DNA of 64,000 nt from Accumulibacter sp. (GTDB lineage Bacteria > Pseudomonadota > Gammaproteobacteria > Burkholderiales > Rhodocyclaceae). The notes beneath the pieces were generated by a model. The model was not told the DNA's origin, did no database searches, and saw nothing but the letters and a program-made list of their open reading frames with translations. Below are positions 12,853 through 38,873 of the stretch, piece after piece (position 1 is the first letter of the stretch; each line of letters opens with the position of its first letter). The stretch lies in the NCBI RefSeq assembly GCF_023806625.1, contig NZ_JAMTDX010000027.1:95647-159646 (forward strand), given 5' to 3'. The position numbers were made by a program, and so were the translations under genes.

Positions 12853-13883
12853 TCGACCAACCCTCCGAGGCTACGCTTCAGTTCACGGTCGTACAGATCA
12901 CTGAATGTCCCGGCGATTGCATTGGGATCAATGCCGGTGTAGCTGTCGCTGGCGTTGGCCACGACCGCCTTCTGTTCATCCCGATAGAGCGAGATGTAGC
13001 GGATGGCGTCGCCCTTTCTCTGGCGCAGATCGAACTCCTTGAGCAGCACGTAATTGTGGGTGGTCAGGAAAACCTGCACCCCAAGCCGATGCAGGGCCAG
13101 AATGATTTCGACTACCTCGCCCATGAGCGAAGGGTTCAGGTTGGCCTCCGGCTCGTCCCAAAAGAGGACTGAGCCAGACAGCAGCGTTCCGTTCTGGATC
13201 AGCAACCAGACCAGGGCCAGCTTGCGCATCCCCTCGGCGAGCAGGGTGAACTCCAATTCGCCCTGGCTGTTTCGCAGAAAGAAGTACTCGCCTTTGGCCA
13301 CCACCTTGCCCTCTATGGCCTTTTGAATGGTCGTCAGCAGCTGTTGACGGTTTGCTGCGATTGGGCCTTTTAGAGTAGGAAGGAATGCCTTCTTGATGAT
13401 GTCGACATAGACATCTTCGAAAGCAATCTCCCGTTTCGATGCCGTAGCCAGAAAACCGGGAGCGTGGGCAAGCATCTCCTTGACCGGAATGTAGGCGGAT
13501 TCAAGCCCGGCTCCCTGCCATTTCGTTTCTCCCGTGACGCGCACATCCTTGACGTCTGCTTTCTGGTTATCAATGACCGCCTTGAGCTTGGCGCCATCAT
13601 CTCGCGTGACCGTAATCTCGGCAGCGGGCAAACCCTGTTGACGGCGTATCAAACGCGTCATACGTGCCTGATAGGGGTTAAAGACGCCTAGCAACTTGCG
13701 GGCAAAACCCTTTTCTTGATCCTCGCCGGTGGTTATCGCCGTTGCAGCATAGAGGACCTTGAGCAGATGGGTCTTGCCCGTACCGTTGGCACCAATGACG
13801 ACATTGACGCCTGGCGATAGCGCCTGGTCCAGCTTGGCGAATGCCGTGAAGTTCTCCAGCTTGATATGATTGATTTTGCTCAT
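12849..13883 (-). CDS. ABC/OLD-like AAA ATPase inserted in the BREX operon
   Basis: 344 residues. Starts MSKINHIKLENFTAFAKLDQ and has Walker A VIGANGTGKTHLLKVLY, an ABC-type signature region (LLAEGMRKLALVWLL) and Walker B VLFWDEPEANLNPSL, then an H-loop-like FLTTHNYVLL. This is the RecF/SMC/OLD-related AAA_15/AAA_21 type seen in many defence pairs (PARIS AriA, OLD, retron and Gabija-like ATPases). It overlaps pglXI upstream and the nuclease-like gene downstream by ATGA. The DNA is visibly less GC-rich than the flanking BREX genes, so the pair looks like a later insertion. Confidence 0.85.
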   Translation of the reverse strand: MSKINHIKLENFTAFAKLDQALSPGVNVVIGANGTGKTHLLKVLYAATAITTGEDQEKGFARKLLGVFNPYQARMTRLIRRQQGLPAAEITVTRDDGAKLKAVIDNQKADVKDVRVTGETKWQGAGLESAYIPVKEMLAHAPGFLATASKREIAFEDVYVDIIKKAFLPTLKGPIAANRQQLLTTIQKAIEGKVVAKGEYFFLRNSQGELEFTLLAEGMRKLALVWLLIQNGTLLSGSVLFWDEPEANLNPSLMGEVVEIILALHRLGVQVFLTTHNYVLLKEFDLRQRKGDAIRYISLYRDEQKAVVANASDSYTGIDPNAIAGTFSDLYDRELKRSLGGLVE

Positions 13884-18002: not shown

Positions 18003-18011
18003 CGAATCAGC

Positions 18012-23438: not shown

Positions 23439-23851
23439 CGACGGGGATCCGGACCACGATGACCGAGCCCGACAATCTACCAGACGCCACCTGGAATTCC
23501 ACGCAGGGTTGCCGAAAGCATACCAGTGGGCGAATCAACGGGACTCGACCGAGCATGATGAACGAGGGGTTGGCGTAAAATGGACGTCGTCCGGCTTGAA
23601 GTCTGGCGGCACACCGGTTGACGAGCGAGCTGGCAACGCTCTCGCCCCAGCTGCCTGCTACGCTCGCACGAATCGTGTGAAAGTCGGACCTGAATTGCTT
23701 CGGCGAACTTGGGAGCGTGCCTGGTTGAGCATTGGTGCGCCCGGCAGTTTCCCTGAGGACAGCGGGTCAGCAAACCGCGGGAGGATCCTATTTCATGCAT
23801 CTGGAAGGTGATGCAAGGGCCATGCATTCACCGGTGGACTAGCCGCACAAC
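23439..23851. other. Upstream region of the CARF-sigma54 regulator
   Basis: About 410 bp with no convincing gene. It should contain the promoter for the regulator at 23852. Short repeats around ATGCA are present at 23793-23827, but no clear promoter or operator could be assigned. Confidence 0.35.
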
Positions 23852-25501
23852 ATGCGTCGTCGAGTTCTGATCTCCTGGATAGCCGTAAACAACGATCCCT
23901 ACGAGCGTGATCGGGCAGGTGGCGACTTTCGCCTGGTTGATGGTTGCCGGGTTCCTGGTCCATCTCTGACCCTGTTGTTCGACCCTGAGTCCGTTTATGC
24001 GGGCAGCATTTCTGACTTCGTTCTGTTTCATGGACGAGCGCGAGACGGGAAGGAAACACGCGAATCTCGATCGGTCAGCCAGACATTGGAGGAACTGAGA
24101 GCCAGGGATCCGGATCTGCGCATTCATCAGGAGCCCTGGGACGGCGACGATCCAACGGATCACGGGCAGATATACGAGTTCCTCAGGGAGAGGCTCCCGG
24201 CAGTACGGAAGAGGTTTGCCGACCGAGAACTGGTGATCCACGTCAGTCCGGGCACGCCTTCCATGCAAACGGTCCTGATACTGATGGGCGAAACAGGGTT
24301 CATCGACTCGCCATTCTCCCTCGTCAAGTCCTATCGCAAGGAGGAGCGGAACGGCCGCCCTGCCGTGGTGCCCGTTCGGCTCGGCATCGACAGCTACTAC
24401 AAGGCATACCGTGCGGCGCGGCCTACGGAAATTTCCTCGGAAGATGCGGCGATCGTCTGGGATCCTGCGCGGTTTCAGTCGGAGCGCATGCGGCAGATTT
24501 TCGACGAGGCCCGCAGATTTGCGCAGTTGAATGTACCCGTTCTCTTGCTCGGTGAGCGAGGCACGGGCAAGACAACTCTGGCTGGCTGGATTCGATCCCA
24601 CAGTCCGTACCGTGTAGAGGCACGGGATGCTCATTGGCCGGCGGTCGCCTGCGGCCAGTACAACCCCGAAACGATGCGTGCTGAGTTGTTCGGCTATAAG
24701 CGCGGTTCCTTCACCGGCGCTCTCAGGGATCATGAGGGCCTGCTCGCAGTGGCCCATAAGGACACGTTGTTTCTCGACGAAGTGGGGGATGTAGGCCGAG
24801 ACCTCCAGCGCCTCCTGATCAAGGCCGTCGAGGAGAAGAGCTACATGCGCTTGGGGGACGATCGACAACTGACGAGCGACTTCAGACTGATATCGGCGAC
24901 AAATCTTTCGGACGAAGAGCTGCGCGAGCGACTGGACCCGGACTTTTTCGATCGCATCAGCATGCTCACTCTGCGCCTGCCGCCGTTGCGCGAGGTTCCA
25001 GAAGAGATTCCCTGGCTCTGGGAAATGGTCTTCGCTCAGGCCTCGCGTCGAGCCGGCACTGCTCGGATACGGCTCCCGGACAGCGCCCACCGGGCCATCG
25101 TGAACGAGCTGTCGCGTCATCCACTTCCCGGGAATCTGAGGGACTTGTTTCGGGTGGCGTACCGCACGATCGCTGCCCGGGCGGATCGGCACTCGCCCCT
25201 GTCGGCCGCCGAGGCGTCCCAGTACGGTCTGGCGGGCGTGGACGGATCCCGGACTGACGCCGGAGCGGACTCGCTACCGCAGTCCGTGGCGCGGGCGTTT
25301 GCCGAGTCATCGAGCCTGGATGCCCTGATCCCACCCGGCAAGACCATCGAAACGAAAGTCGTCGAGCGAGCGCTCAAGGGGTACCTGGCGGCTGAACTTC
25401 GCAGGGTCGCGAAGAAGCGGGGCGTTTCGCCTGACACCCTCTGCGATGTGACGGACCGCGCCTTGAGAGAATGGTCGGCAGCCAGGGAGCGGAAATATTG
25501 A
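23852..25501 (+). CDS. CARF-domain sigma54 activator (RtcR-like)
   Basis: 549 residues. The N-terminal part (1-190) is a Rossmann-like domain with the CARF-type motif VIHVSPGTPSMQT (128-140). The central AAA+ sigma54-interaction domain has Walker A LLGERGTGKTTL (233-243), the sigma54-contact loop as GSFTGA (285-290) and Walker B FLDEVGD (307-313), then the usual sensor segments (LISATNLSDEELRE). The C-terminus is helical and may hold a DNA-binding helix-turn-helix. RtcR has the same CARF-AAA+ plan and is activated by RNA ends or nucleotides. No rtcA or rtcB is nearby; instead a -24/-12 promoter follows the gene, so its target is probably the downstream operon. Confidence 0.88.
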   Translation: MRRRVLISWIAVNNDPYERDRAGGDFRLVDGCRVPGPSLTLLFDPESVYAGSISDFVLFHGRARDGKETRESRSVSQTLEELRARDPDLRIHQEPWDGDDPTDHGQIYEFLRERLPAVRKRFADRELVIHVSPGTPSMQTVLILMGETGFIDSPFSLVKSYRKEERNGRPAVVPVRLGIDSYYKAYRAARPTEISSEDAAIVWDPARFQSERMRQIFDEARRFAQLNVPVLLLGERGTGKTTLAGWIRSHSPYRVEARDAHWPAVACGQYNPETMRAELFGYKRGSFTGALRDHEGLLAVAHKDTLFLDEVGDVGRDLQRLLIKAVEEKSYMRLGDDRQLTSDFRLISATNLSDEELRERLDPDFFDRISMLTLRLPPLREVPEEIPWLWEMVFAQASRRAGTARIRLPDSAHRAIVNELSRHPLPGNLRDLFRVAYRTIAARADRHSPLSAAEASQYGLAGVDGSRTDAGADSLPQSVARAFAESSSLDALIPPGKTIETKVVERALKGYLAAELRRVAKKRGVSPDTLCDVTDRALREWSAARERKY

Positions 25502-25639
25502 TCCGGTCTCTGGAAAGTTGCTTCCGAATAGCCACGATTTCCGGTCTCCGCGCGAGTCTGGCGATAACCGCTCAAATGCTATGCAACAGGTTGATATATA
25601 GGACGTTGCGTTCCTCTTGGCGCGTCGCTTTGGAGCCGT

Positions 25640-25655
25640 TGGCACGCTTTTCGCT
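25640..25655 (+). promoter_or_regulatory. Sigma54 -24/-12 promoter of the TerY-P/McrBC-like operon
   Basis: TGGCACGCTTTTCGCT matches the consensus TGGCACG-N4-TTGCW at every position of the -24 element and at all but one of the -12 element, with the invariant GG and GC in exact register. It lies 139 bp after the activator stop and 62 bp before the first downstream ATG. Possible upstream activator sites: CCGGTCTC direct repeats at 25503-25510 and 25541-25548, and a GCAAC/GTTGC dyad at 25583-25609. Binding is inferred, not shown. Confidence 0.75.
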
Positions 25656-25670
25656 GGTATGTCTGGTGTG

Positions 25671-25693
25671 GGGCCCGGGATCGGTCCGGGCCC
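25671..25693 (+). other. GC-rich hairpin in the 5' leader
   Basis: GGGCCCGG and CCGGGCCC form a perfect 8-bp stem with a 7-nt loop, a few bases downstream of the expected sigma54 transcription start. No T-run follows. It could protect the transcript 5' end or modulate expression. Confidence 0.45.
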
Positions 25694-25717
25694 GTCCAAC
25701 CCGGGAGAGCCAGCCAG

Positions 25718-26035
25718 ATGAACAAGCAGAGCATCGCACCCAGCAACGCTCCGGCCATCACTCAACACGCGTGGACTCGCATGAGCGGCCGTGGATTGAA
25801 CTGCCAGACCATCGATACCGTGCTGAGCTTCGGGCGTGTGATTCACGTGCGCGGGGCGGCGATTCACGTCATCGGCCGGAAGGAAGTAGAGAAGCTGGCT
25901 CGTTTCGGCGTGGATGTGGGCCACTGCGAAGGGGTCCAGGTCGTCTGCACCCCCGACGGATCCGCAATCCTGACGGTGTACAGGAACAGCGACTTCCGAG
26001 GACTGAAGACGGGTGGCGGACGGCGTTGGCACTGA
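25718..26035 (+). CDS. DUF4258 domain protein
   Basis: 105 residues. The core ITQHAWTRMSGRGLNCQTID, followed by VIHVRG and later VQVVCTPDGSAILTVYRN, follows the DUF4258 pattern (His near the start, R-x-x-x-R-G, and a C-terminal strand pair). DUF4258 proteins are often toxin-like or partner with YgiT-type antitoxins; the fold is related to RelE-like and BrnT-like proteins. It is the first gene after the sigma54 promoter, with GGGAG upstream of ATG 25718. No partner antitoxin is adjacent, so it may be an effector or adaptor of the operon. A second, distinct DUF4258 gene lies at 44588-44866. Confidence 0.75.
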   Translation: MNKQSIAPSNAPAITQHAWTRMSGRGLNCQTIDTVLSFGRVIHVRGAAIHVIGRKEVEKLARFGVDVGHCEGVQVVCTPDGSAILTVYRNSDFRGLKTGGGRRWH

Positions 26036-26076: not shown

Positions 26077-27162
26077 ATGGGATGGGGCAAGTACCACGAA
26101 GATAACGTCAGCCGTTATTGGCGGGACGCCAATACAAAGGTGAGGATGGGACACGAACCTCAGGATTGTCCGCCAGGCAAGGCCGGCGGCGGCGATGAAC
26201 TCGGAGAGCTCAGGCTGCTTCGGCGCCGACTGGCGGAGAACCCGGGCGACCGGCACGCGCAGCTGGCGTTTCACGCGGAGAAGGCGCGTCTCGAAAAGCT
26301 TGGTGTTGGCGCTCGCGAAATCTTGGACGTCATTCACGGTAGCGACGAGCGCAAACATGGACCACTGGACATCGCTGATCGTAGTGACGGAACGTCGGCC
26401 GTTTACAGGCGACTGCCGAACGAAGTCGAGAGTAGAGCTCGATCGAACGGCAGCAAGGCGCCAGCGGAGGTCCCGTCGAATATGAGAGGAGAAAAACGCA
26501 TGTCCAAGCTCAAAGATTTCACCGTCTCTACGGCGCGCCCCCTGCCCGTCATCGTCCTCGCCGACGTCAGCGGCAGCATGAGCGCGAACGGCAAGATCGA
26601 TGCGCTCAACGATGCGGTTCAGTCGATGATCGAGAGCTTCGCGGCCGAGGACCACAGCCGAGCCGAGATCCACGTCGCTGTCGTCGCCTTTGGCAAGGGC
26701 GGCGCCAGGCTCCACCAGCCTCTGTTGCCAGCGACGCAAATCAAGTGGGAGCGAGTCGGCGCAGCGGGGAATACGCCCATGGGCGCGGCGTTCGATCTGG
26801 TCGTGAAGATGGTCGAGGACCACGCACAGATCCCGAGCCGGGCATACAGACCGACCGTTGTGCTCGTCTCCGACGGCCAGCCCACCGACGAGTGGCGCGA
26901 ACCCCTGCAGCGCATGCTCGCTTCGGACCGCGCGTCGAAGGCATCACGGTTCGTGCTCGGGATCGGTGATGACGCAGATCCCGCAATGCTGGCCGAGTTC
27001 CTGGCCGATCCGGCCGCACGAGTGTACTCGGCGCACGAAGCCCGACAGATCAAGAATTTCTTTCGGTGGGTGACGATGAGTGTGACGCAGCGCACACGCA
27101 GCCTGAACCCCAACAGCGTCGTCGTGGTCGACCCGATGGCTTTGGACGACTATGACTTCTAA
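26077..27162 (+). CDS. TerY-like vWA-domain protein with N-terminal extension
   Basis: The vWA domain is complete: MIDAS motif LADVSGSMS (residues 161-169), GNTPMGAAFDLV threonine site and VLVSDGQPTDEW. Such TerY-like proteins form the triad with a PP2C phosphatase and a kinase. The full frame from ATG 26077 gives 361 residues, including an extra N-terminal region (MGWGKYHEDNVSRYWRDAN and a Gly/Lys-rich linker). An internal ATG at 26500 with AGGAG at 26487-26491 would give the usual 220-residue TerY form. Both starts may be used. The stop overlaps the next start by 11 bp. Confidence 0.85.
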   Translation: MGWGKYHEDNVSRYWRDANTKVRMGHEPQDCPPGKAGGGDELGELRLLRRRLAENPGDRHAQLAFHAEKARLEKLGVGAREILDVIHGSDERKHGPLDIADRSDGTSAVYRRLPNEVESRARSNGSKAPAEVPSNMRGEKRMSKLKDFTVSTARPLPVIVLADVSGSMSANGKIDALNDAVQSMIESFAAEDHSRAEIHVAVVAFGKGGARLHQPLLPATQIKWERVGAAGNTPMGAAFDLVVKMVEDHAQIPSRAYRPTVVLVSDGQPTDEWREPLQRMLASDRASKASRFVLGIGDDADPAMLAEFLADPAARVYSAHEARQIKNFFRWVTMSVTQRTRSLNPNSVVVVDPMALDDYDF

Positions 27163-27892
27163 GGGTTACATGGTACGCAGGAGCCGTGTGGATTGCTTCG
27201 GTGCGAGTGTTGCCGGCCCTGCTCACCGGGCGCTACGAAGGCCCAACGAGGACCAATGGCTCGGTGCCTCTGGCGCCTTCGGCAGCCTGGTCGTGGTGAG
27301 CGACGGTTTGGGTTCGAAGGACCGTGCCAGGCATGGCGCAACGAAGGCCTGCATCGCAACCTTGCGTGCGGCCAGGGGGTGGCACAAGGACGGGACGGGA
27401 TCTCTCGACGATCTCGTCGGCCGAATCGAGCCGCTCTGGCTCGAGGAAATCGCCCCGTTCGACCGCTCGGATTGCGCCGCCACGTGCCTGCTGGCGCTCG
27501 CGTACCAAGATGGTCGAACCTACGTGGCTGCGCTGGGCGACGGGATGGCAGCCGTGCGCAGGCGCGGTGCCGTCGAGCGGGTCGAGCATCCGCGGGCATC
27601 GGACTTTTCTAACGAGACCCAGTCGCTCGGGAGCGGTGGTGTCTGGGCGAAGCGTTGCTTCGACTGCGCGGAGATCGACATCGCCGTGCTGGCATCGGAT
27701 GGCGTTTCGGACGACCTTCGTCCCGATCGCCTCGCCGACTTCGTCACTTGGCTGAAGGACGAAATCGGGACGTTGCAGCCGGTGCCTCGGTGGCGTTCGC
27801 TGCGGCGTGAGCTGAACGAATGGCCCACTCCAAGGCATATCGACGACAAGACCATTGCAGTTCTGGCGTGGCCGAACAGGGGGACGGAATGA
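27152..27892 (+). CDS. PP2C-family protein phosphatase of the TerY-P triad
   Basis: 246 residues. PP2C metal-binding motifs are visible in order: RPNEDQW, VVSDGLGS, the GST-like CAATCLLAL, ALGDG, LASDGVSD and a C-terminal DDKT. It should dephosphorylate Ser/Thr (or similar) residues set by the neighbouring kinase, possibly on the vWA protein or the helicase complex. It overlaps the vWA gene upstream and the kinase downstream (ATGA), so the three proteins are made in a coupled way. Confidence 0.9.
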   Translation: MTSKGYMVRRSRVDCFGASVAGPAHRALRRPNEDQWLGASGAFGSLVVVSDGLGSKDRARHGATKACIATLRAARGWHKDGTGSLDDLVGRIEPLWLEEIAPFDRSDCAATCLLALAYQDGRTYVAALGDGMAAVRRRGAVERVEHPRASDFSNETQSLGSGGVWAKRCFDCAEIDIAVLASDGVSDDLRPDRLADFVTWLKDEIGTLQPVPRWRSLRRELNEWPTPRHIDDKTIAVLAWPNRGTE

Positions 27893-29289
27893 CATCCGTT
27901 ATCCGGCAAGTCACCGACCTCAACGGGGCTCGTCATGTGCTGACGCGTCAACTCGGCCGAGGGGGCCAGGGGGCCGTCTTCGAAGTCAAGGGTGGGCGAC
28001 TGGCCGCGAAGATCATCTTCGACTCATCGCCGTCCCGACGTGAGCAACTCCGGAACCAGCTGACGGCGGTCAAGCGACTGCCGCTGGCGGACCTCGAGAT
28101 CGCTCGCCCATTGGAAATGCTGCGCGAGCCCGTGCTGGGTTACCTGATGGAACTGCTGACCGGGATGCAGCCGCTGAGTGCGCTCTGCAAGCCGCCGAAG
28201 GCGACGACCTCGGTTGCGTCCTGGTACTTTCAGACGGGTGGTCTTCGGAGACGCCTGGCACTGCTGGCACGCACGGCCGATGTCCTGTCCGCTCTTCACG
28301 GCAAAGGGCTCGTGTACTCCGATCCATCTCCGCACAACATCTTTGTCTCCGAAGCCAGCGATGCCACAGAAGTCCGCTTCATCGACAGCGACAACATCCG
28401 CTACGTGTCCAGCGCGGGGCTGCCCACGGTGTTCACTCCTGGCTATGGTGCACCTGAACTCATCCGCGGCGCTTCCGGAGTGAACTCGCTCACCGATGCG
28501 CATGCATTTGCAGTCCTCTGCTTCCAGACCCTATCCCTTGTCCATCCGCTCATCGGAGATGCCGTCTCGAGCGGACCGCCGGAGCGCGAAGAAGAGGCCT
28601 TTGGGGGATCGATGCCCTGGGTCGATGATCCGGGCGACAGTTCGAACCGTTGCTCGATCGGGATACCACGGAGCGTCACGCTCTCCGCGAGATTGGCTGA
28701 GATCTCGCAACGAGCTTTCCGCGCAGGTCTCAAGCACCCACTTCAGCGGCCCGGCGTCTCGGAGTGGGCGGAGAGACTGCACGCCGCTGCCGACGCGACA
28801 GTCCTGTGCCAGGAGTGCCACGGAACGTACTACATGAACGCCGAGCAATGCCCTTGGTGTGACGCGCCGCGCTTGGGTTTCGTCGTCGCGGAATTCCAGC
28901 TCTGGGACCCCGCGCTGGGTGAGGGCTCGGAGCTCGTGTCGCGACCCTCCGGCGATCGTCGAAGGCCTGTCATCGTCGCCGCCTTGGCACTGACCGATGG
29001 AGAGTCGAGAGTCATCACGCGTCGTCTTGCCACCGGGCAGGCTGGTCGGGACGGGCAGCGTCCGGTGATCGACCTGAAGTTCGAGGGCACGCGCGTCACG
29101 CTCCAGTCACTCGACGGGGCAAGCTACCGGCTCACATCGCCCACCGGAGCCAGATCTGCCTCGGTCGGACCGAAACCCTCGTCGATCCTACTGAAGCACG
29201 ACGAGGCCTCGTGGCGCTTACACCTCGGATCTCCCGACGCACTCCATAGGGTCGTGTCCTTCACCGCGCGTAAGGGGGGCACGAAATGA
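27889..29289 (+). CDS. TerY-P-type protein kinase with C-terminal zinc ribbon
   Basis: 466 residues. Glycine loop LGRGGQGAVF (22-31), Lys41 in LAAKII, catalytic loop GLVYSDPSPHN (140-150, with Asp145 and Asn150) and a metal-binding loop reading FIDSDN (164-169) in place of DFG. After the kinase there is a zinc ribbon CQEC at about 307-310 and CPWC at 321-324, then a C-terminal beta-rich tail. This architecture is the kinase-ZnR member of the TerY-P triad. The ATG at 27889 overlaps the PP2C stop; a longer open frame from 27820 is only overlap. Confidence 0.88.
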   Translation: MTSVIRQVTDLNGARHVLTRQLGRGGQGAVFEVKGGRLAAKIIFDSSPSRREQLRNQLTAVKRLPLADLEIARPLEMLREPVLGYLMELLTGMQPLSALCKPPKATTSVASWYFQTGGLRRRLALLARTADVLSALHGKGLVYSDPSPHNIFVSEASDATEVRFIDSDNIRYVSSAGLPTVFTPGYGAPELIRGASGVNSLTDAHAFAVLCFQTLSLVHPLIGDAVSSGPPEREEEAFGGSMPWVDDPGDSSNRCSIGIPRSVTLSARLAEISQRAFRAGLKHPLQRPGVSEWAERLHAAADATVLCQECHGTYYMNAEQCPWCDAPRLGFVVAEFQLWDPALGEGSELVSRPSGDRRRPVIVAALALTDGESRVITRRLATGQAGRDGQRPVIDLKFEGTRVTLQSLDGASYRLTSPTGARSASVGPKPSSILLKHDEASWRLHLGSPDALHRVVSFTARKGGTK

Positions 29290-32200
29290 AGGCGCACGAA
29301 GCTGCATTCGGAACGTGCTCGCTGATTGAGCTCGTGCCTGCCGATGCCACGACGTTCGACATGACGGTGGTCGTGAGAAGCGAAGCCGCCCTGCTGTTCT
29401 CGGAAGCCACCGGCCAATCGCTGCTTCGTGTCGGCACCGTGGCGGTTAGCGTGCGCGGGCGCGACAAGCAGGGGGAAACCGTTCTCGCGCGATTGCGCGA
29501 CCGCAATCTGCCTCGACTGGGATGGGTCGTTGCGGTGACGCCAAAGAGCGGCGCCACGGAATGGCTACAGGTCCAGATGCACGAGTTTCCAGTGCAGTAC
29601 TCCTGGCCGGGCAACATCGACATCGGGGTCGACGAGAAGATCGTCGACGTCATCCGTCAGAAGCTCGGGAAGAGCATCTCTGCAACGGAAGTCATTCAGT
29701 GGCTCACGGAGCGCTTCGTCCTGGTCGACCAGGAGTCGGGTTCCAAGGTCTTCATCTCTGGCAGCCCCGCGCCGGAGAGCGATCACCGTCGTCCGTTTCG
29801 CATGCACGGCAAGGGGTATGCAATCGATGTCCAGAAGACGCCCGACGACCGGCTTCTCGTGACGCGCCTCGTCGAAGCGCGTCGTGGATCGTCTGCGGAA
29901 GAGAGGCGCCCGATCGTTCCTGTTCAAGGCACCGTGCGCTTCTGCGATTCGACCATTGCAGGCGCATTTCGAGGTACGGCCCGCTCCCAGTTGGATCAGC
30001 TGGTGGAACAGGCCGGGAGCTACCTGAACGTCTGGCGCGAGTACAACAAGCTGGAGCGGGACAGTGTCTTTCGCCGAGCGCGGACGCTGGGGTGGCTGAG
30101 CTACTCGGACGCGAAACGGCAGGCAGACGGACGATGGCGCTTTCGGATCCAGGATGCGAAGCAGATCGACACAGCCCTGAATCTGCTTCGAGGTGCGGAG
30201 GATGTCGAACTGGAGGCCGCGTCGCACCCTCCACGCGAATTGCAGGAGTCCTCGGATACTTCGGCAAACGGCTCGTCGACCGAAGGGGACCTCGCCAGGA
30301 GTCCGAAGGCATTCGTCGGGTCGTTCGTTGGCGGTACGGCTGCCGGGCGGTACCTGGATGTCCTGCCGACAGGCGATCTGGACGACCGCGAGCCTCCTGT
30401 TCCCGGCGTCCTCTTCATGAGCATGAGCGGCGACAGAAAGCGGCTCGAGCGCAGGGAGCGGGCGCAAGCCAGCATCGCTCTGGCCGAATGTCCCATGCCT
30501 CAACTGGGGCTGCTGCTCGAAGGAAGCGTGGTACCGGAGAGAAGGCGGAAGGCGGAGGCGCCGCTTTCGGCGGCCGTGAAGGAGATCTTCGGCGACGATC
30601 CCACGCCCAGACAGATCGAAGCCATTCGAGTCGCCTTGAACACGCCGGACATCGCCCTGATTCAAGGGCCGCCCGGCACCGGCAAGACAAAGACGATCGC
30701 GGCCCTTCAGGCGCGATTGGCCGAGCTGGGCGAAGACGGCGACCTCGCCGGTCAGACGCTGCTCACGAGCTACCAGCACGATGCCGTGGAGAACGCGGCG
30801 GCCAAGACGCTGGTCTTCGGTCTGCCGGCCATCAAGGTCGGCAGGAAACACGGACGAAGCGATGACGGGGACGGATTCGACCGATGGCGGCGCGAGCGTG
30901 TCGACGCCATCCGAGCCGACCTCGCGAGCTTGCCGGAGAGGGCGGTTAGCGAAGTCCTGAGGAAAGTGCGGGCCATGTCTGCGGCCTACCAAGCTTCGCG
31001 GCTCGGCCCCGCGGAGTCCGCGAAGATGGTCCGCGAGATCGAAGACATCGCGCGACCGTATCTGTCGCCGTCGGTACTGGACCGCCTCCTTGCGATTCGA
31101 CAGGAGCTGTCGGCGCAACACGGATTCATGCCGGACTTCGAGTCAGACGATCGGGAGTTGTTGCTAAAGGCCGTCCGGGCGCTCCGCATCGATCCGGTCA
31201 GCTTTGGCGACGACGGTGCTCGAAATGCCGCGCGGGTCATGCAGCGGCTCGAACGTCTCGGGTCCCTGGACGACAACAGTCGGCGGCTGCTCTCCGCTGC
31301 GGCCGACTGGGATGCGGATGAGCCCCCCGGATTCCTGGGCGAACTCAAGGCGCTTCAGGAAGTCCTCATCGACCGCTTTGCGGAGCCCGCTGCGGTCGGC
31401 GGACCGCGCGGACATGCCGACCTGGAGGAACTGCTCCCTGAGATCGTCAACGAGCTTTTTTCGCGGGCGAGGGAGTCGTCCGGCGGCGAGGACGCGGTCC
31501 TGTACGAATACCTGTTCGACCTCGAGAACGACCTCGATGGCGTGAGGTCTGCCGTGCGCGACTACACCGTCGTGCTGGCAGCCACTTGTCAGCAGGCGGT
31601 CGGCTTTCAGATGAGCCTCCAGAAGGGGGAGCAGAGCGTCTTCGCGAACGTCATCGTCGACGAGGCGGCGCGGGCCAATCCCCTCGATCTGTTCATTCCG
31701 ATGGCACTGGCGGAGCGCCGGATCATTCTCGTCGGGGATCACCGCCAGCTCCCACACATCCTGGAGCCGAACGTCGAGGGGCAACTGGAACTCTCGGTCT
31801 CCGACGAGACGCGAAAGGCGCTGCGGCGGAGTCTTTTTCAACGCCTCTTCGAATCGATGCGTGAGCGCGAGGCTGCCGACGGCATCAAGAGAACCGTCAC
31901 GCTCGACGTGCAGTACCGAATGCATCCCGTTCTGGGTACCTTCGTCAGCGATACGTTCTATGCGCCCTACGGGGAAGCCTTTCGATCCGAGAAGCCTGCC
32001 GAACAGTTCGAGCATGGCCTGCCTGGCTACCAACCTCACGTCGCCGCTTGGGTCGACGTTCCGCTATCGGCCGGAAAGGAGCAGGGCGGACAGAGCAAGC
32101 GCAGACCCGCCGAGGCACGCTGGATCGCGAAGGAGCTCAAGAATCTGGCCACGGCCCGGCCGGATCTGAGCTTCGGGGTGATTTCGTTCTACGCGGGCCA

Positions 32201-32618
32201 GGTCGACGGAATCCTCGCCGAGTTGGAGGCGCTCGGCATTGCGGAACAACTCCAGGACGGGTCGTTCCGCGTCGCCGACGCATGGCGAGAGACGCGGGGG
32301 CTGGACGGACACCTCAAGGAGCGGATCCGGGTCGGCACGGTCGACGCCTTCCAGGGCAAGGAGTTCGATGTCGTCTTCCTGTCGATGACTCGATCGAACG
32401 ATCTTCCGATTTCCGACGAGCGCTCCCTGAGACGGAAGTTCGGGCACCTGATGCTCGAGAACCGGTTGTGCGTCGCGATGAGCCGCCAGCAGAGGCTACT
32501 GATCGTCGTTGGCGATTCGGGAATGCTTCGCGGCGAAGTCGCCGAACGAAGCCTTGCCGGCCTGGTGGCATTCCGAAAACTGTGCGAGGGGCGGCATGGC
32601 TGTGTTATTTCAGCTTGA
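29286..32618 (+). CDS. UPF1/DNA2-like superfamily 1 helicase
   Basis: 1110 residues. After about 450 residues of N-terminal accessory domain come the SF1 motifs: Walker A ALIQGPPGTGKTKTI (around 458-470), Walker B VDEAARANP (around 790) with GDHRQLPHIL, LDVQYRMHP (around 875), GTVDAFQGKEFDVVFLSMTR (around 1017) and RLCVAMSRQQ (around 1060). A helical insertion lies between motifs Ia and II, as in UPF1/DNA2 types. Similar helicases are part of TerY-P-linked CoCoNuT systems and are predicted to act on RNA. Overlaps the kinase gene by ATGA. Confidence 0.9.
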   Translation: MKAHEAAFGTCSLIELVPADATTFDMTVVVRSEAALLFSEATGQSLLRVGTVAVSVRGRDKQGETVLARLRDRNLPRLGWVVAVTPKSGATEWLQVQMHEFPVQYSWPGNIDIGVDEKIVDVIRQKLGKSISATEVIQWLTERFVLVDQESGSKVFISGSPAPESDHRRPFRMHGKGYAIDVQKTPDDRLLVTRLVEARRGSSAEERRPIVPVQGTVRFCDSTIAGAFRGTARSQLDQLVEQAGSYLNVWREYNKLERDSVFRRARTLGWLSYSDAKRQADGRWRFRIQDAKQIDTALNLLRGAEDVELEAASHPPRELQESSDTSANGSSTEGDLARSPKAFVGSFVGGTAAGRYLDVLPTGDLDDREPPVPGVLFMSMSGDRKRLERRERAQASIALAECPMPQLGLLLEGSVVPERRRKAEAPLSAAVKEIFGDDPTPRQIEAIRVALNTPDIALIQGPPGTGKTKTIAALQARLAELGEDGDLAGQTLLTSYQHDAVENAAAKTLVFGLPAIKVGRKHGRSDDGDGFDRWRRERVDAIRADLASLPERAVSEVLRKVRAMSAAYQASRLGPAESAKMVREIEDIARPYLSPSVLDRLLAIRQELSAQHGFMPDFESDDRELLLKAVRALRIDPVSFGDDGARNAARVMQRLERLGSLDDNSRRLLSAAADWDADEPPGFLGELKALQEVLIDRFAEPAAVGGPRGHADLEELLPEIVNELFSRARESSGGEDAVLYEYLFDLENDLDGVRSAVRDYTVVLAATCQQAVGFQMSLQKGEQSVFANVIVDEAARANPLDLFIPMALAERRIILVGDHRQLPHILEPNVEGQLELSVSDETRKALRRSLFQRLFESMREREAADGIKRTVTLDVQYRMHPVLGTFVSDTFYAPYGEAFRSEKPAEQFEHGLPGYQPHVAAWVDVPLSAGKEQGGQSKRRPAEARWIAKELKNLATARPDLSFGVISFYAGQVDGILAELEALGIAEQLQDGSFRVADAWRETRGLDGHLKERIRVGTVDAFQGKEFDVVFLSMTRSNDLPISDERSLRRKFGHLMLENRLCVAMSRQQRLLIVVGDSGMLRGEVAERSLAGLVAFRKLCEGRHGCVISA

Positions 32619-34170
32619 TTCGCCTGTTCTGCACTTCGGTCCCCGCCTTCCTGCGGGAGTCCGGTACAGCCAGCGCAAGTTCCTGTTGTGGCCGGCGCTG
32701 ATGTATCGGGTCGTCGCACCGGAAGTGCGGCCTCGACAGGTCAACATACTGCAGAAGGCAGTGCTCGGAATGTGTCGCGCGGGCATCACGTTCCCCCCGC
32801 GAATCGGCGAGAAGCTGAGAATCCATGCGGACCTGGCCACGCTCATCCTGTCCGAGCTTCTGCAGAGGGGGCTCATCAAGCAGGACGGACTGCCAACGCC
32901 TGCAGGCAACGAGGTGTTCGAGGCCGAAGCGCTCGACATGAGACCTGCGGTAACCGGGCACGTGTTCCAGGACCCGTGGTCCGGCGATCTCTGGCCACGC
33001 TTCGTCCAGCGCCTCGACTACGCGGAACTGGACCGTCGCGAGAACGGCTTTCCGGATCTGATTCTGGGCACCAAAGGTAAGCCGCGACGAGAGCGGGCCT
33101 TCATGTGCCGACCGCTCGACCCCTCGGTTCCGCCGGCGCCAGATGTGCGGCAAATACTGCGGGCGACCCGGCGGCACAAGTCGGCCCTGCGCAATTCCGA
33201 GTCCTTCGAGTCGGCCGATGAGGACGAGCATCTCGACCTGGACGCAGGTCCGGTGCTCGAGCGAATCTCGCTGGTAGACGACTCACCGACTCCGGTCTTC
33301 CTGTCCACCTTCATCTATCTGGTCGAGAACGATCACACCGGAGACTGGCACGCGTGCGATCCCTTCGGGCTGGGCGAGAGCCCGGCCCTCAGACGCGCCG
33401 TCGAGCGCGAACTCGCTCACTTTCCAAGGCTTCGCGAAACGGTCGAGGCCCTCTTTGGTTCGTCGTTGAACGAGCAGGCGGAAAAGCAGCGAGGCTGGAT
33501 TGCCGAAGTGAGGGCGCTGGCCACTTCGAACCTTGAGGGAACGCTCACGGTCGACGTGCGCGACCTGCCAGAGTTCGAACAGCTCGTTGAACTCGAAATG
33601 GCGCACGTCGAGGCGGGGCTGCTCGGCGATGCTTGTCCTGAGCAACGTCTGAGGGATCTCCTGGGTGCAGCGAGACGAGTACTCGAATCGTCATTCCGTT
33701 CGATAGGCGCGCGCTTTCCGCCGGGCGACGTGTGGCGCAAGGTCTACTTCAAGGACAAGAACGGCATGGATCGCCCGGTCCAGGACCAGGTCTACGTCTC
33801 GGCCGTCTATCGGGCACACGCCGCCGAGCTTGGCTTCAAGACTCCGTTGCCTGACGCTATGGCCGGAACTAGGCCAAACCACTTGAAAGCAGCATGCTTT
33901 GAATCCGGTTGGCGGCTTCGCGGTGCAATCGTCGCCGCGATGATGACGGCAACCAATCAGCCCCGTCACCCGCTTGTGCGCGCAGCGGAGCGTCGGCCAG
34001 AACTCATCGAGGATCTGGACCGGGTCGCAACGATGGCGGGTGATGCCATACACGCTGGTGACAGCATTCTGGAGCTTGCAGCGATGTCTCCAATCATTGA
34101 ATCGGTGTACAGATCCGTGGCGATCCTCGGCGGAATCGACGTTGGCGCGACACAACTGGTAGGGGGCTAA
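32596..34170 (+). CDS. Winged-helix / helical protein of the TerY-P-McrBC-like operon
   Basis: 524 residues, overlapping the helicase stop by 23 bp. Residues about 35-95 look like a winged helix (VNILQKAVLGMCRAG, then LATLILSELLQRGLIKQDGL). The middle is mixed with an acidic segment. The C-terminal 110 residues are helical (HPLVRAAERRPELIEDLDRV, ATMAGDAIHAG) and resemble the end of a HEPN domain, but the catalytic R-N of an RNxxxH motif is absent and only the His-like position remains. A role as recognition or scaffold subunit is a guess; the family was not recognised with certainty. Confidence 0.65.
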   Translation: MAVLFQLDSPVLHFGPRLPAGVRYSQRKFLLWPALMYRVVAPEVRPRQVNILQKAVLGMCRAGITFPPRIGEKLRIHADLATLILSELLQRGLIKQDGLPTPAGNEVFEAEALDMRPAVTGHVFQDPWSGDLWPRFVQRLDYAELDRRENGFPDLILGTKGKPRRERAFMCRPLDPSVPPAPDVRQILRATRRHKSALRNSESFESADEDEHLDLDAGPVLERISLVDDSPTPVFLSTFIYLVENDHTGDWHACDPFGLGESPALRRAVERELAHFPRLRETVEALFGSSLNEQAEKQRGWIAEVRALATSNLEGTLTVDVRDLPEFEQLVELEMAHVEAGLLGDACPEQRLRDLLGAARRVLESSFRSIGARFPPGDVWRKVYFKDKNGMDRPVQDQVYVSAVYRAHAAELGFKTPLPDAMAGTRPNHLKAACFESGWRLRGAIVAAMMTATNQPRHPLVRAAERRPELIEDLDRVATMAGDAIHAGDSILELAAMSPIIESVYRSVAILGGIDVGATQLVGG

Positions 34171-34173
34171 ACG

Positions 34174-36624
34174 ATGTCGAGGAACAGGAACAAGCCTAGG
34201 TCATTTCCACAGCAGAACCCGAAGCTGGTGCCGTCAACCGAAGGCGCCGCCGGTAAGTCACCCACCAGCAGGCCGGTGAGCGCTGCGGATATCACGACCC
34301 CGGGAACGGCGATCGAGGCGATCAGCAAGGTTCATTCGCAAGCGCTGGAGACGGCCACAGAAGGAGACATCGAGGCCGCGACGAAGACTGCTCCGCCTGG
34401 CACCGACGACCTGGATATCGTGAAGGCCGCGCGCGAGCTCTGGGAAGCAAATGAACTCTGCGGGGCGCGATCGGCGCGGATGTTGCGTCTCGAAGAAGGC
34501 GAACGGGCTCTCGAGGAAACGCAAGACCTGTTGGCCCAGGAGCAGGCGCAGCTTGCCGCTGACCGGAAAGCGCTCGAAGAGAGGGAATCGTCGCTCAAGA
34601 TCAACGAGGAGGAGGTTCGGGATAGGGAGGACAAGCTTCGGGTCCGCGAGCTGAACGCTGAGGCCGGGTTTGCAGCGGAGCGCCGCGTCTCCCTTCAACT
34701 CCTCGATCAGGAAGCGGCCGTCGTCCGGGAAGAACTGTCTCGGGCGCGCGGTTTGATCTCGGCGGAGCGTGCTGATTGGGACTCGCGCTGGCGGCAGGAC
34801 GACCAGAGGGTCCGGACGGAACTTGAGCAACTGAGGCGCGAGCAGGCTGAGCAACATGCGGCGTCGGTACGTGGATTGGATGAGCAGAGGCGGCAGTTCG
34901 AAACTGAAGCCTCGCAGGCGCGTGCAACCCTGAAGAAGCAACAGGCTCAGCTCGATGTTCGCGAAGACGTGCTGCGGGAGGATCGTGAGGCATTCGATCT
35001 TCGAGTAAAGCAGCGTGCAGGTGCCGCGCTCGAAGAGGCCGAGGCGAAGTACCGGGACTTGGAAGCTCGTCTCGCGGCAGCGCGAAAGGAGCGCGACGGT
35101 TTGTACGAGAGGTTGCGAGAGCGCGAAGAGGCGGAACGCGCCCTTGGCAACCGACCGCTCGACCAGGTCAAACGGGAGCTCGACGCCCTGATCAAGGAGA
35201 ACAAGTCCCTGTCCGATCGTCTCGCCAAGCGCCCAAGCGAGGACATGGTGGCAAACCACGAAAAGCTGGAGCGCGAGAAGGAAGAGTGGGAAGCGGACCG
35301 TGCGCGACTCTCCCAGGAACTGATGGCCAGCCGCGCCTCGGTCGCCCGATCGGCGATTGCCGTCACCGAGATCGAGTCGCTCAGGGATCAAAAGGCTGCA
35401 CTGGAGACCGGGAGGGACTTGCTGCAGGCCGCCCTGGAGGAACTCCGGAAGGACGTCGACGAACGCATTCGGCGGTCTGACGGGGTCAGCCCGTTCCCGT
35501 CTTGCAGTCAGATGGATGGCGACGACGTCCTTCAGGGCCGCGTGCCGATGTTCGACGAGATTCCGGATCTGGCTGCGTTCTGCAGCGACCTGCAGAACCG
35601 AGTCGCCTTCGATCCGACGTCGGGTAAGGAGCTGTACTACTCCCTGTCCGACATTCGCTGCTTTCTCGCCGGCATGGCGATGAGCAGGCTCCATCTGCTT
35701 CAGGGCATCAGCGGGACCGGGAAGACGAGCCTGCCTCTGGCCTTTGCTCGCGCACTGGGTGCCGGAGCCGCCCTCATCGAGGTGCAGGCCGGGTGGAGGG
35801 ATCGCCAGGATCTCATTGGTCACTTCAACGCGTTCGAGCGGCGTTTCTACGAGTCCGAGTTTCTGCAGGCGCTCTACAAAGCGCAGTGCCCGCGCTACGC
35901 GGATGGAGTGTTCATCGTCGTTCTGGACGAGATGAATCTCTCGCACCCGGAGCAGTACTTCGCCGACTTGCTGTCCGCGCTGGAGCAAGACCCGCAGTAT
36001 CAGAAGCTGGATCTCATGACTGCCGCTGTGGAGCCGGCACCAGCCCTGCTTCAGAACGGTCGGACCCTTCCGCTGCCGCAAAACGTCTGGTTCGTTGGCA
36101 CGGCGAACCACGACGAGACGACCAAAGACTTCGCGGACAAGACCTACGATCGCGCTCACGTGATGGAGCTGCCGCGCCATCGGGAATCCTTCAAGCCCAA
36201 GCGAACGAGGGCGCGTGCTCCGGTATCGCTCACGACTTTGCAGGGTGCGTTCGCAGCAGTGCAGGCCACACACCAGAAGCAAGCGGCGGATGCGTATCGA
36301 TTCGTGGACGCCCAGTTCGCCGAGATCTTGGGGCGCCGATTCCGGGTTGGCTGGGGCAATCGCCTGGAACGACAGATGCTCAACTTCGTTCCCGTCGTGT
36401 TGGCCGCTGGCGGCACCATGACCGAGGCCGTTGACCACATCCTGGCCACGAAACTCCTACGCAAGATTCGCGATCGGCACGATACGCGACCGGACGACCT
36501 CGAGGCTCTGCGCCTGGCGGTCGAAGAGGCATGGCCCCGTCTCGGCTCGCAGGGCGAGCCGGTGAAGTCGACCAGCATCGTTCGGGCGGAGCTGCGGCGT
36601 TTGGGCGCCGATGAAGCTGAATGA
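34174..36624 (+). CDS. Coiled-coil McrB-like AAA+ NTPase (CoCoNuT CnuB-type)
   Basis: 816 residues. Residues about 90-430 are almost uninterrupted coiled coil, rich in Glu, Arg, Leu and Gln (LEETQDLLAQEQAQLAADRK is an example). The C-terminal AAA+ module has Walker A LLQGISGTGKTSLPLAFARA (around 508-527), Walker B VVLDEMNLSHPEQYFADLL (around 584-602) and the McrB-style sensor WFVGTANHDETTKDFADKTY (around 637-656) with the N-x-D consensus element. McrB relatives use GTP. Extensive coiled coils before an McrB GTPase are the defining feature of CoCoNuT systems. It overlaps the DUF2357 gene by ATGA. Confidence 0.88.
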   Translation: MSRNRNKPRSFPQQNPKLVPSTEGAAGKSPTSRPVSAADITTPGTAIEAISKVHSQALETATEGDIEAATKTAPPGTDDLDIVKAARELWEANELCGARSARMLRLEEGERALEETQDLLAQEQAQLAADRKALEERESSLKINEEEVRDREDKLRVRELNAEAGFAAERRVSLQLLDQEAAVVREELSRARGLISAERADWDSRWRQDDQRVRTELEQLRREQAEQHAASVRGLDEQRRQFETEASQARATLKKQQAQLDVREDVLREDREAFDLRVKQRAGAALEEAEAKYRDLEARLAAARKERDGLYERLREREEAERALGNRPLDQVKRELDALIKENKSLSDRLAKRPSEDMVANHEKLEREKEEWEADRARLSQELMASRASVARSAIAVTEIESLRDQKAALETGRDLLQAALEELRKDVDERIRRSDGVSPFPSCSQMDGDDVLQGRVPMFDEIPDLAAFCSDLQNRVAFDPTSGKELYYSLSDIRCFLAGMAMSRLHLLQGISGTGKTSLPLAFARALGAGAALIEVQAGWRDRQDLIGHFNAFERRFYESEFLQALYKAQCPRYADGVFIVVLDEMNLSHPEQYFADLLSALEQDPQYQKLDLMTAAVEPAPALLQNGRTLPLPQNVWFVGTANHDETTKDFADKTYDRAHVMELPRHRESFKPKRTRARAPVSLTTLQGAFAAVQATHQKQAADAYRFVDAQFAEILGRRFRVGWGNRLERQMLNFVPVVLAAGGTMTEAVDHILATKLLRKIRDRHDTRPDDLEALRLAVEEAWPRLGSQGEPVKSTSIVRAELRRLGADEAE

Positions 36625-38873
36625 CGTATAGGTTCATCGACAGGTTGCTCGGACATGCCAGTGATGTCCATGCGGGGGATCTCGTCCTCGGCAGATTTAT
36701 GGTCGAGCCGCTGGGCGATGACTCCACCTTCTTGAACTCCGTTGCCATAGCCGAGCCCAGCTTCTGCGTCCCCGATCTCCGAGGGCACTGGCAGTTGATG
36801 GAACCGGGTCGCGAGCGAGTCGAAGGAGCGATGTCGCGAGCGCAGGTTCTGGACCGGCTGGATGTAACGAGCATTCTGGATGTCGGAAGCAGCGTCAGAG
36901 AGGTTCTCTCGTCGGGCGGAACTTGGCTGGATGCGCTCGACGTGTCTCCCCTGGTTCCGGGAATGTCTGAGCGAGCGGAGCTGCAGGAGTTCGAGAAGTT
37001 GCTCGCGGACCGTCTCGGCCATCTCGTCGAAGTCTGTCAGCGACCCCGGACCCACCTCAGGGTGGAGGTCGAGAGAACAGCGGTGGCTTGGGCCCGGCGG
37101 CTTGCAACGCAGGCCCCCAGCTATCTCGCAGCGCATACCGAGGATTGGGACCGCCCGACTTTGCGTGCCGTCATACCCAAGCGCATCCTCTCGTTGGTCC
37201 GCGAGGACCAGTTCGATATCTATGAGAACAGGGTCGCTGTTCGTCTCGTCGATCATCTGGACGCGTACCTGTCGCGCCGCGTGACCGAGGTCTCCAGGCT
37301 GCTGCGCCTGTTCAACGAGGTCGGGGACCACAGCTCTACGGCAGGACAGGGGTCCCACTGGCGGCAGAAGCGGGTCTACCAACTCTGGGGCGACTCGCTC
37401 GATGCCGGAGAGGCGCGCCGCAAGGCCGAGCGCACTCTCGAGCAACTGAAGTTTCTGAAGTACTCGGTTTCCGGCCTGATGGACTCAGTGCTGTATCGCG
37501 AGGTGCCGCGGCGGGCATTAGTGAGCACGACGCTCACGATGACGAACATTCTCGCGAACGACGTCCATTACCGCAGGGTGGCGGAAGTCTGGTTGGCTTG
37601 GGCACGCCTTGGGCTCGAGCAATCGCCTAGACCGGATAAGCACTTCGAAGAGATGCAGGAGCTGTGCCGCTGCTTCGGGTCGTTTGCGCTCCTGCTCGTC
37701 ATCAGAGGGCTGGACCAGCTTGGCATCGAACCCGTGGACCTGTCGCGGGCTCTCGATGGTGACGCGATCGACCTTGAAGGGCGGGGCACACGAGGTCGAC
37801 TCTCCTGGTCATTGATCGACGGCACATTGCGCCTATCGATCGATGGCGCGAGGCCCTTGCGAATCGTTCCGATCCCCGGGTCGCTCGCGATGTTCGGAGA
37901 CGAAGACCTGGCCAGATTGATTCGCGATGCCGATGATGCCGCGACCCAAGAGGAGATCACGCTGGTGCTCTATCCGAGCCCTCCGTCTGAAGCGGCTCTT
38001 CGACGCTTAGCCCCGGTCTACGCACATCGGTTGAATGCTCTTTCGCACGAGGTCGCTGAGCGGGGGCGAGGACGTGCGGGATTCCTGCCCGTCTCTCCAT
38101 GGGACTTGTCCAGCGTCGAGCGCGTCGCCCGCGAGCTTCGATGGGTCATCACAGCGCCGCGGTTCCTTGCTTATCCGCCGTTTATAGCCAATCGCCCGAT
38201 ACCCAACATCGCGGACAGCGCAGCATGGCTCGAGGCTACTGGCACCGGCGTGTTCGTCACCCGAGCGCCTGAAGTGCATGAGGATCTCCGGCTTGCAGAG
38301 CGGCTTGCCACTCAGCGGAAGAGACTCGAGGCTCTGGAGGACGAGCACGAGGGCGTATCCCAGCAGCTACGACTGGCGGTGCGAGATGGCGGTGCGAGCG
38401 GGCCGCTGAACGCTCGCAAGAAGGCGTTGAACGCCTCGATCACCGACCTTCGATCGCAGATCGATTCCCTGGCCGACTTCTCGAAAGCGCTGGAAGCCGC
38501 CATCGGGCTCGTGAAATCGCTGCTATCCTGCCCAACGTGCCCGACCATCGCTGACCCGAGGCAGCACTTCACCGGCGGCCGTGGGCACCGGTTTTCCTGC
38601 GTGTGCCCCAGTTGCTTCACCAAGTGGGGGACGGAGGCGTGCCCAACCTGCAAGGCATGGATTCCGACCTTGATGCCTAAAGTGGATTCTTGGGCGGCGA
38701 ACGACTCGGAAGTGGGGTGGCTGGATCGTTTCCTTGGAGCCGATGTCCTCGCAGTGCCTTACCAGATGGAAGACGGCTCGGTTGGCTTCGTGTGCCCATC
38801 ATGCGGGCGTCGACGCGAGACAGCCATCGTCTTCCCGGAGACTGAGTACCCAGGATGGAATCGCAAGCGATAG
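36621..38873 (+). CDS. DUF2357/McrC-like protein with C-terminal zinc ribbons
   Basis: 750 residues. DUF2357 signature EDQFDIYENRVAVRLVDHLD (about 196-215), then VLYREVPRRALVSTTLTMTN with a helical region. The part where the McrC-type PD-(D/E)XK core should lie (about 395-470, around LSWSLIDGTLRLSIDGARPL) has no clear D...(D/E)-x-K set, so nuclease activity is doubtful. A short coiled coil (about 560-625) is followed by Cys clusters CPTC, CPSC, CPTC and CPSC (about 636-730), i.e. two zinc ribbons. Partner of the McrB-like motor; last gene of the operon. Confidence 0.82.
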   Translation: MTYRFIDRLLGHASDVHAGDLVLGRFMVEPLGDDSTFLNSVAIAEPSFCVPDLRGHWQLMEPGRERVEGAMSRAQVLDRLDVTSILDVGSSVREVLSSGGTWLDALDVSPLVPGMSERAELQEFEKLLADRLGHLVEVCQRPRTHLRVEVERTAVAWARRLATQAPSYLAAHTEDWDRPTLRAVIPKRILSLVREDQFDIYENRVAVRLVDHLDAYLSRRVTEVSRLLRLFNEVGDHSSTAGQGSHWRQKRVYQLWGDSLDAGEARRKAERTLEQLKFLKYSVSGLMDSVLYREVPRRALVSTTLTMTNILANDVHYRRVAEVWLAWARLGLEQSPRPDKHFEEMQELCRCFGSFALLLVIRGLDQLGIEPVDLSRALDGDAIDLEGRGTRGRLSWSLIDGTLRLSIDGARPLRIVPIPGSLAMFGDEDLARLIRDADDAATQEEITLVLYPSPPSEAALRRLAPVYAHRLNALSHEVAERGRGRAGFLPVSPWDLSSVERVARELRWVITAPRFLAYPPFIANRPIPNIADSAAWLEATGTGVFVTRAPEVHEDLRLAERLATQRKRLEALEDEHEGVSQQLRLAVRDGGASGPLNARKKALNASITDLRSQIDSLADFSKALEAAIGLVKSLLSCPTCPTIADPRQHFTGGRGHRFSCVCPSCFTKWGTEACPTCKAWIPTLMPKVDSWAANDSEVGWLDRFLGADVLAVPYQMEDGSVGFVCPSCGRRRETAIVFPETEYPGWNRKR

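Follow-up and report, generated by a model that had tools for sequence, protein, structure and literature searches.

In the RtcR-rtcBA system, as covered by the accessible parts of two papers, RtcR binds 5′ tRNA halves with a 2′,3′-cyclic phosphate end (PMC7790460), and RtcA and RtcB also bind the CARF domain of Escherichia coli RtcR and are required for activation (PMC9650030). RtcR with its CARF domain deleted was reported to be constitutively active in vitro (PMC9650030). A hybrid promoter for E. coli RtcR contained the rtcBA upstream activating sequence (UAS) and the rtc integration host factor (IHF) site (PMC9650030). CARF-NtrC-like regulators linked to restriction genes were predicted to be sigma54 activators of the genes downstream (Makarova et al. 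2014, PMC4012209), and control of Type II coiled-coil nuclease tandems (CoCoNuTs) by RtcR has already been predicted (Bell et al. 2024, PMC11090510). As far as the accessible text goes, RtcR-like control of CoCoNuT and restriction operons was predicted from gene order and protein family. The word "promoter" occurs once in the accessible main text of Bell et al. (PMC11090510), which lists neither a -24/-12 nor an enhancer or IHF sequence for a CoCoNuT. Among the matches listed in a search of licence-limited literature, no title dealt with a sigma54 promoter of a CoCoNuT or Type I restriction operon, and the terms RtcR, CARF, McrB, and restriction did not occur in the accessible part of a sigma54-regulon survey (PMC12316311). 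Here, we analyzed a 64,000-nucleotide stretch of an Accumulibacter sp. contig (NZ_JAMTDX010000027.1), referred to as the window, in which the gene of a CARF-AAA+-HTH sigma54 activator is followed by a candidate -24/-12 promoter and a Type II CoCoNuT operon. The candidate promoter, two candidate enhancer dyads, and a candidate IHF site, all within 165 bp, are new cis-regulatory evidence for the published prediction.

RESULTS

The regulator and its candidate promoter

We read the locus, with a probability of roughly 0.8, as a self-contained switch plus payload, in which a CARF-gated sigma54 activator, its dyads, an IHF site, and the promoter would drive the operon. A sequence-only reading of the window had proposed an activator with an SPGTP CARF motif, an intact AAA+ domain, and a GSFTGA loop, and its coordinates and motifs proved correct (Table 1): the open reading frame (ORF), Walker A (GERGTGKT), Walker B (LFLDE), and the GAFTGA-type loop GSFTGA were all located. 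The PADLOC CARF_AAA_HTH model RtcR_PspF1 (PDLC01994) matches residues 3 to 542 with an E value of 1.3e-151. Pfam matches of the N-terminal domain to RtcR and Csm6-CARF were under the Pfam cut-offs, yet they were found in all four sequences compared (the window and three orthologues); the CARF alignment, searched as a profile against PDB, gave no significant match. The regulator gene is the sole RtcR-Pfam match in the genome (below cut-off), and rpoN is present there in a single copy.

The promoter TGGCACGCTTTTCGCT ends 62 bp ahead of the first ATG of the operon, with the -24 GG and the -12 GC in register, and both the position and the single mismatch given earlier were correct. It scored 16.0 bits, the top site of the window (runner-up, 15.4 bits), compared to 19.4 bits for the E. 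coli rtcB promoter scored as a control; the weight matrix follows the published consensus and was not fitted, and the threshold was 12.5 bits. As a bare pattern, the motif does not exceed chance expectation in 64 kb: the window has 14 matches to the consensus at up to two mismatches, versus 10.7 expected, and 2 of the 14 have one mismatch. Its significance comes instead from its position relative to the regulator gene and from the conservation of its footprint, as described below, and on these two grounds a chance motif was rejected as the explanation of TGGCACGCTTTTCGCT.

Recurrence among related regulators

Related regulators were collected from PDLC01994 matches at a strict score in sets of 61, 369, 399, and 398 genomes, which overlap; in one set, where every genome matched at a loose cut-off, only the six best were taken (at least 230 bits). 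Together with the window, two metagenome-assembled contigs (L039 and L040, regulators 82% and 93% identical), a Corallococcus locus (L041, 51%), and two plasmid CoCoNuT loci, the 31 genome loci made up 37 scored loci. Two fragments at contig ends (L042 and L044), L111 (the same place as L096), and a second regulator in L091 were kept outside this count. Counting from the regulator stop, the interval -40 to +200 contained a -24/-12 site that reached 12.5 bits in 30 of the 37 loci. Among control genes taken from these loci, 2 of 484 had one, as did 133 of 7,400 shuffles. When clustered at 60% identity, 11 of 15 clusters had a member with the site. A plain consensus count, which allowed at most one mismatch, gave 18/37 versus 0/484. 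The site did not follow other genes for bacterial enhancer-binding proteins (bEBPs), the general class of sigma54 activators: none of 24 located by tblastn (L010 to L033; 6 carry the canonical RtcR motif TTGTH, and in 18 the motif expression used found no CARF motif) reached 12.5 bits, the maximum being 10.9, and a narrower motif-filtered subset gave 0/16.

In 28 loci, we scanned the nearest downstream gene on the same strand that encodes 300 amino acids or more; the 6 CoCoNuT loci and 3 loci that have no such gene were left out. These genes comprised 21 HsdR, 4 OLD-type ATPases, 1 MoxR, and 2 unrelated ones (L067 and L068). In the restriction-type relatives analyzed, tandem dyads are absent, and the promoter is at or near the regulator stop codon in most loci. 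In nine of these loci (L075, L082, L083, L084, L086, L087, L089, L092, and L093), the -24 T directly follows the stop, as in TGATGGCA, which leaves no room for an intergenic enhancer, and none was found.

Footprint, dyads, and IHF site

Aligned across related loci, the intergenic region keeps both the -24/-12 and the upstream dyads in L039 and L040, in line with the sequence-only reading. The absence of the motif from orthologous loci, named there as an outcome that would speak against it, was not found, since the motif is present in both close orthologues (2/2) as well as in L041 and L098. Three features of this footprint were apparent across the window, L039, and L040. First, 11 of the 12 specified promoter positions are invariant. 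Second, two candidate enhancer dyads of the pattern GGAAN6WTCC lie in tandem at -149 and -128 relative to the -24 T (21 bp apart), and their arms are invariant at 16/16 positions, whereas the two spacers vary (1/6 and 2/6 invariant). Third, in the background stretch from dyad 2 to the promoter, only 27 of 112 positions (24%) are invariant. The 62 positions from the promoter to the ATG (25656-25717) include 43 invariant ones, compared to the 27/112 upstream. A GC-rich hairpin in the predicted leader (about 25671-25695) had no clear stability advantage over shuffled sequence in the four sequences folded (z = 0.17, -1.15, 0.21, and 1.98). In L041, whose regulator is the more distant one, two perfect dyads are found 22 bp apart at -121 and -99, with a 16.0-bit promoter.

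Two such dyads occurred in shuffled sequence at a rate of 0 to 0.001 per locus (2,000 shuffles each); dyads with free arm letters were found in 26/600 shuffles at up to one mismatch and in 0/600 at none. In the 4.09-Mb genome, the tandem pattern occurs once, at the locus itself, and a reversed-pattern control occurs nowhere. Among the 37 loci, tandem dyads upstream of the promoter were seen in six (the window, L039 to L041, L067, and L068), not in L069, and in none of the 30 others. Tandem-dyad patterns with up to one mismatch also occur upstream of the regulator in L040, L071, L072, L094, and L099 and are taken as chance or unexplained. About 50 bp upstream of the L099 regulator lies an inverted repeat of 34 bp, TTACCAAGCATGTAACTGGTTACATGCTTGGTAA, whose 16-base arms are complementary. 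The candidate IHF site CAACAGGTTGATA was called with YAANNNNTTGATW, which we take to be the IHF consensus; perfect matches were found at -56 in the window and L039 and, separately, at -41 in L099.

These results bear on the alternative that an ordinary sigma70 or read-through promoter drives the operon, the -24/-12 being a chance or minor element. The window-wide counts fit that alternative, as do CoCoNuT loci in which the fetched stretch holds no such regulator and which probably use other promoters (in five where tblastn found no such regulator, the upstream scores were 13.2, 2.8, 6.8, 2.6, and 5.5 bits). It is opposed by the positional enrichment, the footprint, and the genome-unique dyads, and we regard it as very unlikely.

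TABLE 1 Features of the regulator, the intergenic region, and the CoCoNuT operon (window coordinates)
Feature	Position	Strand	Basis or remark
Cassette left edge	23840..23851	+	Similarity starts at 23840 versus L040, L042, L044; at 23848 versus L039
CARF-AAA+-HTH sigma54 activator, RtcR_PspF1 type, 549 aa	23852..25501	+	ORF, Pfam, PADLOC
SPGTP motif, CARF domain, residues 132-136	24245..24259	+	
Sigma54_activat AAA+ domain, residues 209-374	24476..24973	+	Pfam, E 8.6e-39
GSFTGA sigma54-contact loop, residues 285-290	24704..24721	+	
Candidate enhancer dyad 1, GGAAATATTGATCC	25491..25504	+	Spans regulator stop codon; arms 8/8 invariant (window, L039, L040)
Candidate enhancer dyad 2, GGAAAGTTGCTTCC	25512..25525	+	Arms 8/8 and spacer 1/6 invariant (window, L039, L040)
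Candidate IHF site, CAACAGGTTGATA	25584..25596	+	Match to presumed consensus YAANNNNTTGATW
Candidate -24/-12 sigma54 promoter, TGGCACGCTTTTCGCT	25640..25655	+	One mismatch to consensus TGGCACGNNNNTTGCW
Predicted leader	25666..25717	+	Well conserved; start inferred from -12 position
DUF4258 protein	25718..26035	+	Pfam match below cut-off
TerY-like VWA protein, DxSGS	26077..27162	+	Pfam; conserved from about residue 98, true start may be further in
PP2C phosphatase, TerY-P triad	27152..27892	+	Pfam
Ser/Thr kinase, C-terminal CxxC...CxxC, TerY-P triad	27820..29289	+	Pfam, motif
CnuH, UPF1-like SF1 helicase (AAA_11/AAA_12), beside CnuB	29286..32618	+	Pfam
CnuE	32596..34170	+	Gene order and alignment, without Pfam match
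CnuB, McrB-like GTPase, NxD(E) motif NHDE	34174..36624	+	Pfam, motif
CnuC position, inferred McrC-like by gene order	36621..38873	+	Without Pfam or PADLOC match

A regulator-operon cassette

The regulator and operon form a unit common to the window, L039, L040, and L041. In L039 and L040, similarity spans from just ahead of the regulator across the operon, gene layouts to the left of the cassette differ, and a nucleotide comparison found no match to the orthologues in the left flank beyond the cassette edge. Regulator, promoter, and operon thus appear to move as one block. With at most 12 bp of similarity to the left of its ATG, the regulator gene must take its own promoter from outside or have it very close by. 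bEBPs can act from distant sites, and the regulator might on that ground act in trans on another promoter, its position at the operon being incidental. This is scarcely tenable given that the tandem dyad occurs in the genome only at the locus and that the similarity covers the regulator through the operon with an unmatched left flank. A trans target elsewhere was therefore rejected, on the unique dyad and on the regulator-operon unit shared by the orthologues.

The downstream operon

The downstream operon had been described as a "TerY-P/McrBC-like" defense operon. It is better named a Type II CoCoNuT, where it is placed by the order of its genes, its TerY-P triad, and an NxD(E) motif in the GTPase. 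The CnuB GTPase motif reads TANHDE, that is, NxD, and NxxD occurs nowhere in the protein; CnuH stands beside CnuB, and the TerY-P triad with a zinc-ribbon kinase is frequent in, not core to, the type. In RtcR-associated CoCoNuT loci, BrnT-like RelE-family genes occupy the place of the DUF4258 gene, according to the accessible part of Bell et al. 2024 (PMC11090510). The same text states that CnuE of Type II CoCoNuTs has one HEPN domain with Rx4H conserved "in most cases," so the motif is not strict. In the window, L039, and L040, the presumed Rx4H of CnuE is incomplete, the His being kept and the Arg replaced, and the CnuE RNase of this clade may be inactive or altered. CnuE of L103 also lacks the Arg, L041, L099, and L104 keep it, and L098 has Rx5H. 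A search of viral contigs with CnuH found one distant relative, and in phage records there were four matches, none spanning 80% of the query.

Exceptions and the plasmid test

Seven of the 37 loci fell below 12.5 bits: L085 (10.7), L094 (10.7), L099 (10.3), L067, L068, L069, and L091. In L067 and L068, the regulator is the last gene of a helicase-unknown-PLD-regulator operon, and sites of 14.0 and 13.5 bits, along with tandem CGGG...CCCG dyads 20 bp apart, are found at the operon heads. In L069 (6764-8488), the CARF motif and Walker A are kept, but the sigma54 loop is degenerate (GSHSTA), and promoter and dyads are both missing. As the degenerate loop goes with the absence of both, this locus was counted for the sigma54-switch reading; its regulator has perhaps turned into a non-transcriptional factor. 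The L069 regulator adjoins TerY-P genes on the opposite strand. L091 is unexplained, and no site was found at its second regulator either (4.9 bits).

Several observations weigh against the switch reading or its generality. First, the matrix was not fitted, and the plain consensus count at up to two mismatches is 30/37 versus 12/484. Second, the CoCoNuT loci are not uniform. For instance, L099, itself a CoCoNuT locus, has only its sub-threshold site, L098 and L099 have no tandem dyads, and no perfect IHF match was found in L040, L041, or L098; the regulator-less CoCoNuT locus L103 carries its 13.2-bit site 392 bp upstream. Third, a common enhancer was sought in the restriction-type loci and none was found, and the promoter is retained where the loop varies only mildly (L074, GAFTGS; L089, GAFSGA). 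Finally, in a test on 10 plasmid loci with a criterion declared beforehand, only 3 passed (H1, H14, and H25), 2 of 6 among those with a CARF motif, and because one that passed, H14, lacks this motif, CARF regulators are not alone in having the layout. Among the plasmid loci with the motif, the two with an HsdR-like gene next passed, and the four in which a PLD gene precedes the regulator did not; operon heads of three of the latter scored 12.1, 10.1, and 7.9 bits. A promoter near the regulator stop thus seems a good rule for regulator-first loci and is unproven for helicase-PLD loci.

The combination of a helicase, an unknown protein, a PLD protein, and a CARF-bEBP in one operon is recurrent (L067, L068, L123, L126, and L129, and L127 in part). 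It was found by annotation on plasmids of Pontibrevibacter and two Vibrio, and by Pfam in the genomic loci. For L127, on a Klebsiella plasmid, the annotation of the stretch shows no more of the operon than the PLD and regulator genes, and upstream there is an IS21 transposase.

DISCUSSION

The sigma54 part of the earlier prediction of a ligand-gated switch is strongly supported by the conserved -24/-12, the genome-unique dyads, the IHF consensus, rpoN, and the layout in relatives, and the locus is probably a functional, dedicated sigma54 switch. In the mechanism we propose, the CARF domain would keep the AAA+ domain off when no signal is present. The regulator would bind the two tandem 14-bp dyads at 25491-25525, IHF would bend the DNA at its candidate site, and the AAA+ ring would open sigma54 polymerase held at the -24/-12. 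Transcription would then begin near 25666, and the DUF4258-TerY-P-CnuHEBC operon would be expressed.

For the signal, RNA ends or cyclic nucleotides are suggested by analogy with canonical RtcR, and the activator probably senses damaged RNA; we infer both a ligand and an antiphage effect. We give somewhat less than even weight to the same switch being released through CARF by something other than an RNA end, such as a cyclic oligonucleotide, a partner protein, or a phage product. The CARF motif is SPGTP here versus TTGTH in E. coli RtcR and six RtcR-like genes of relatives, which fits such a signal, and the missing HEPN Arg of CnuE weakens the proposed self-feedback by HEPN products in this clade, making a self-made RNA-end loop less likely. 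The dependence of E. coli RtcR on RtcA/RtcB at its CARF domain (accessible part of PMC9650030) points the same way. As the sequence-only reading had noted, there are no rtc genes at the locus: among 18 window proteins scanned with Pfam, none matched rtcA or rtcB, the regulator's sub-cut-off RtcR match aside, and the genome's only rtcB, the one rtc gene sought genome-wide, is on another contig. However, RtcR-type CARFs mostly lack a basic residue after strand 4, according to the accessible part of Makarova et al. 2014 (PMC4012209), and SPGTPS, as read here, also lacks one, which argues against a standard cyclic-oligonucleotide pocket.

On the wider pattern, we see an even chance that CARF sigma54 activators with an attached promoter are a portable, signal-gated ignition module for differing defense operons, which would make a broad class of restriction systems non-constitutive and switched through sigma54 by an RNA damage or infection signal. 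The payloads plugged into it would be Type I restriction, Type II CoCoNuT, OLD-ATPase/helicase-nuclease, and MoxR-VWA systems, and perhaps helicase-PLD. If this is true, many Type I restriction operons would be inducible, and the view of their cost and self-damage would change. At the present locus, the named sites make it possible to test whether RNA ends produced by infection ignite a second defense. BREX-like genes (PglZ, BrxHI, PglXI, and BrxC) and a HEC-02A/AriA-like ATPase gene lie at 7518-21737 on the minus strand of the window. A BREX-like operon nearby fits the idea of a second layer; it is on the opposite strand, and any link to the switch is speculation.

Compared with canonical RtcR of E. 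coli and Salmonella (accessible parts of PMC9650030 and PMC7790460), the locus is alike in having a CARF-AAA+-HTH activator, a UAS, an IHF site, and a sigma54 promoter, the last three as candidate sites here. It differs in its target, which is the divergent, adjacent rtcBA in E. coli and a same-strand downstream defense operon here, with no rtcB/rtcA neighbor, in SPGTP instead of TTGTH, and in the tandem GGAA dyads. The Type II CoCoNuTs in the accessible part of Bell et al. 2024 (PMC11090510) differ in the presumed HEPN Arg of CnuE, missing in the window. Their RtcR-associated members resemble it in the RtcR homologue, the BrnT-like gene, the TerY-P triad, the CnuH-CnuE-CnuB-CnuC order, and the NxD GTPase motif. 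Finally, the regulator shares its protein architecture with the CARF-NtrC-like, restriction-linked regulators in the accessible part of Makarova et al. 2014 (PMC4012209).

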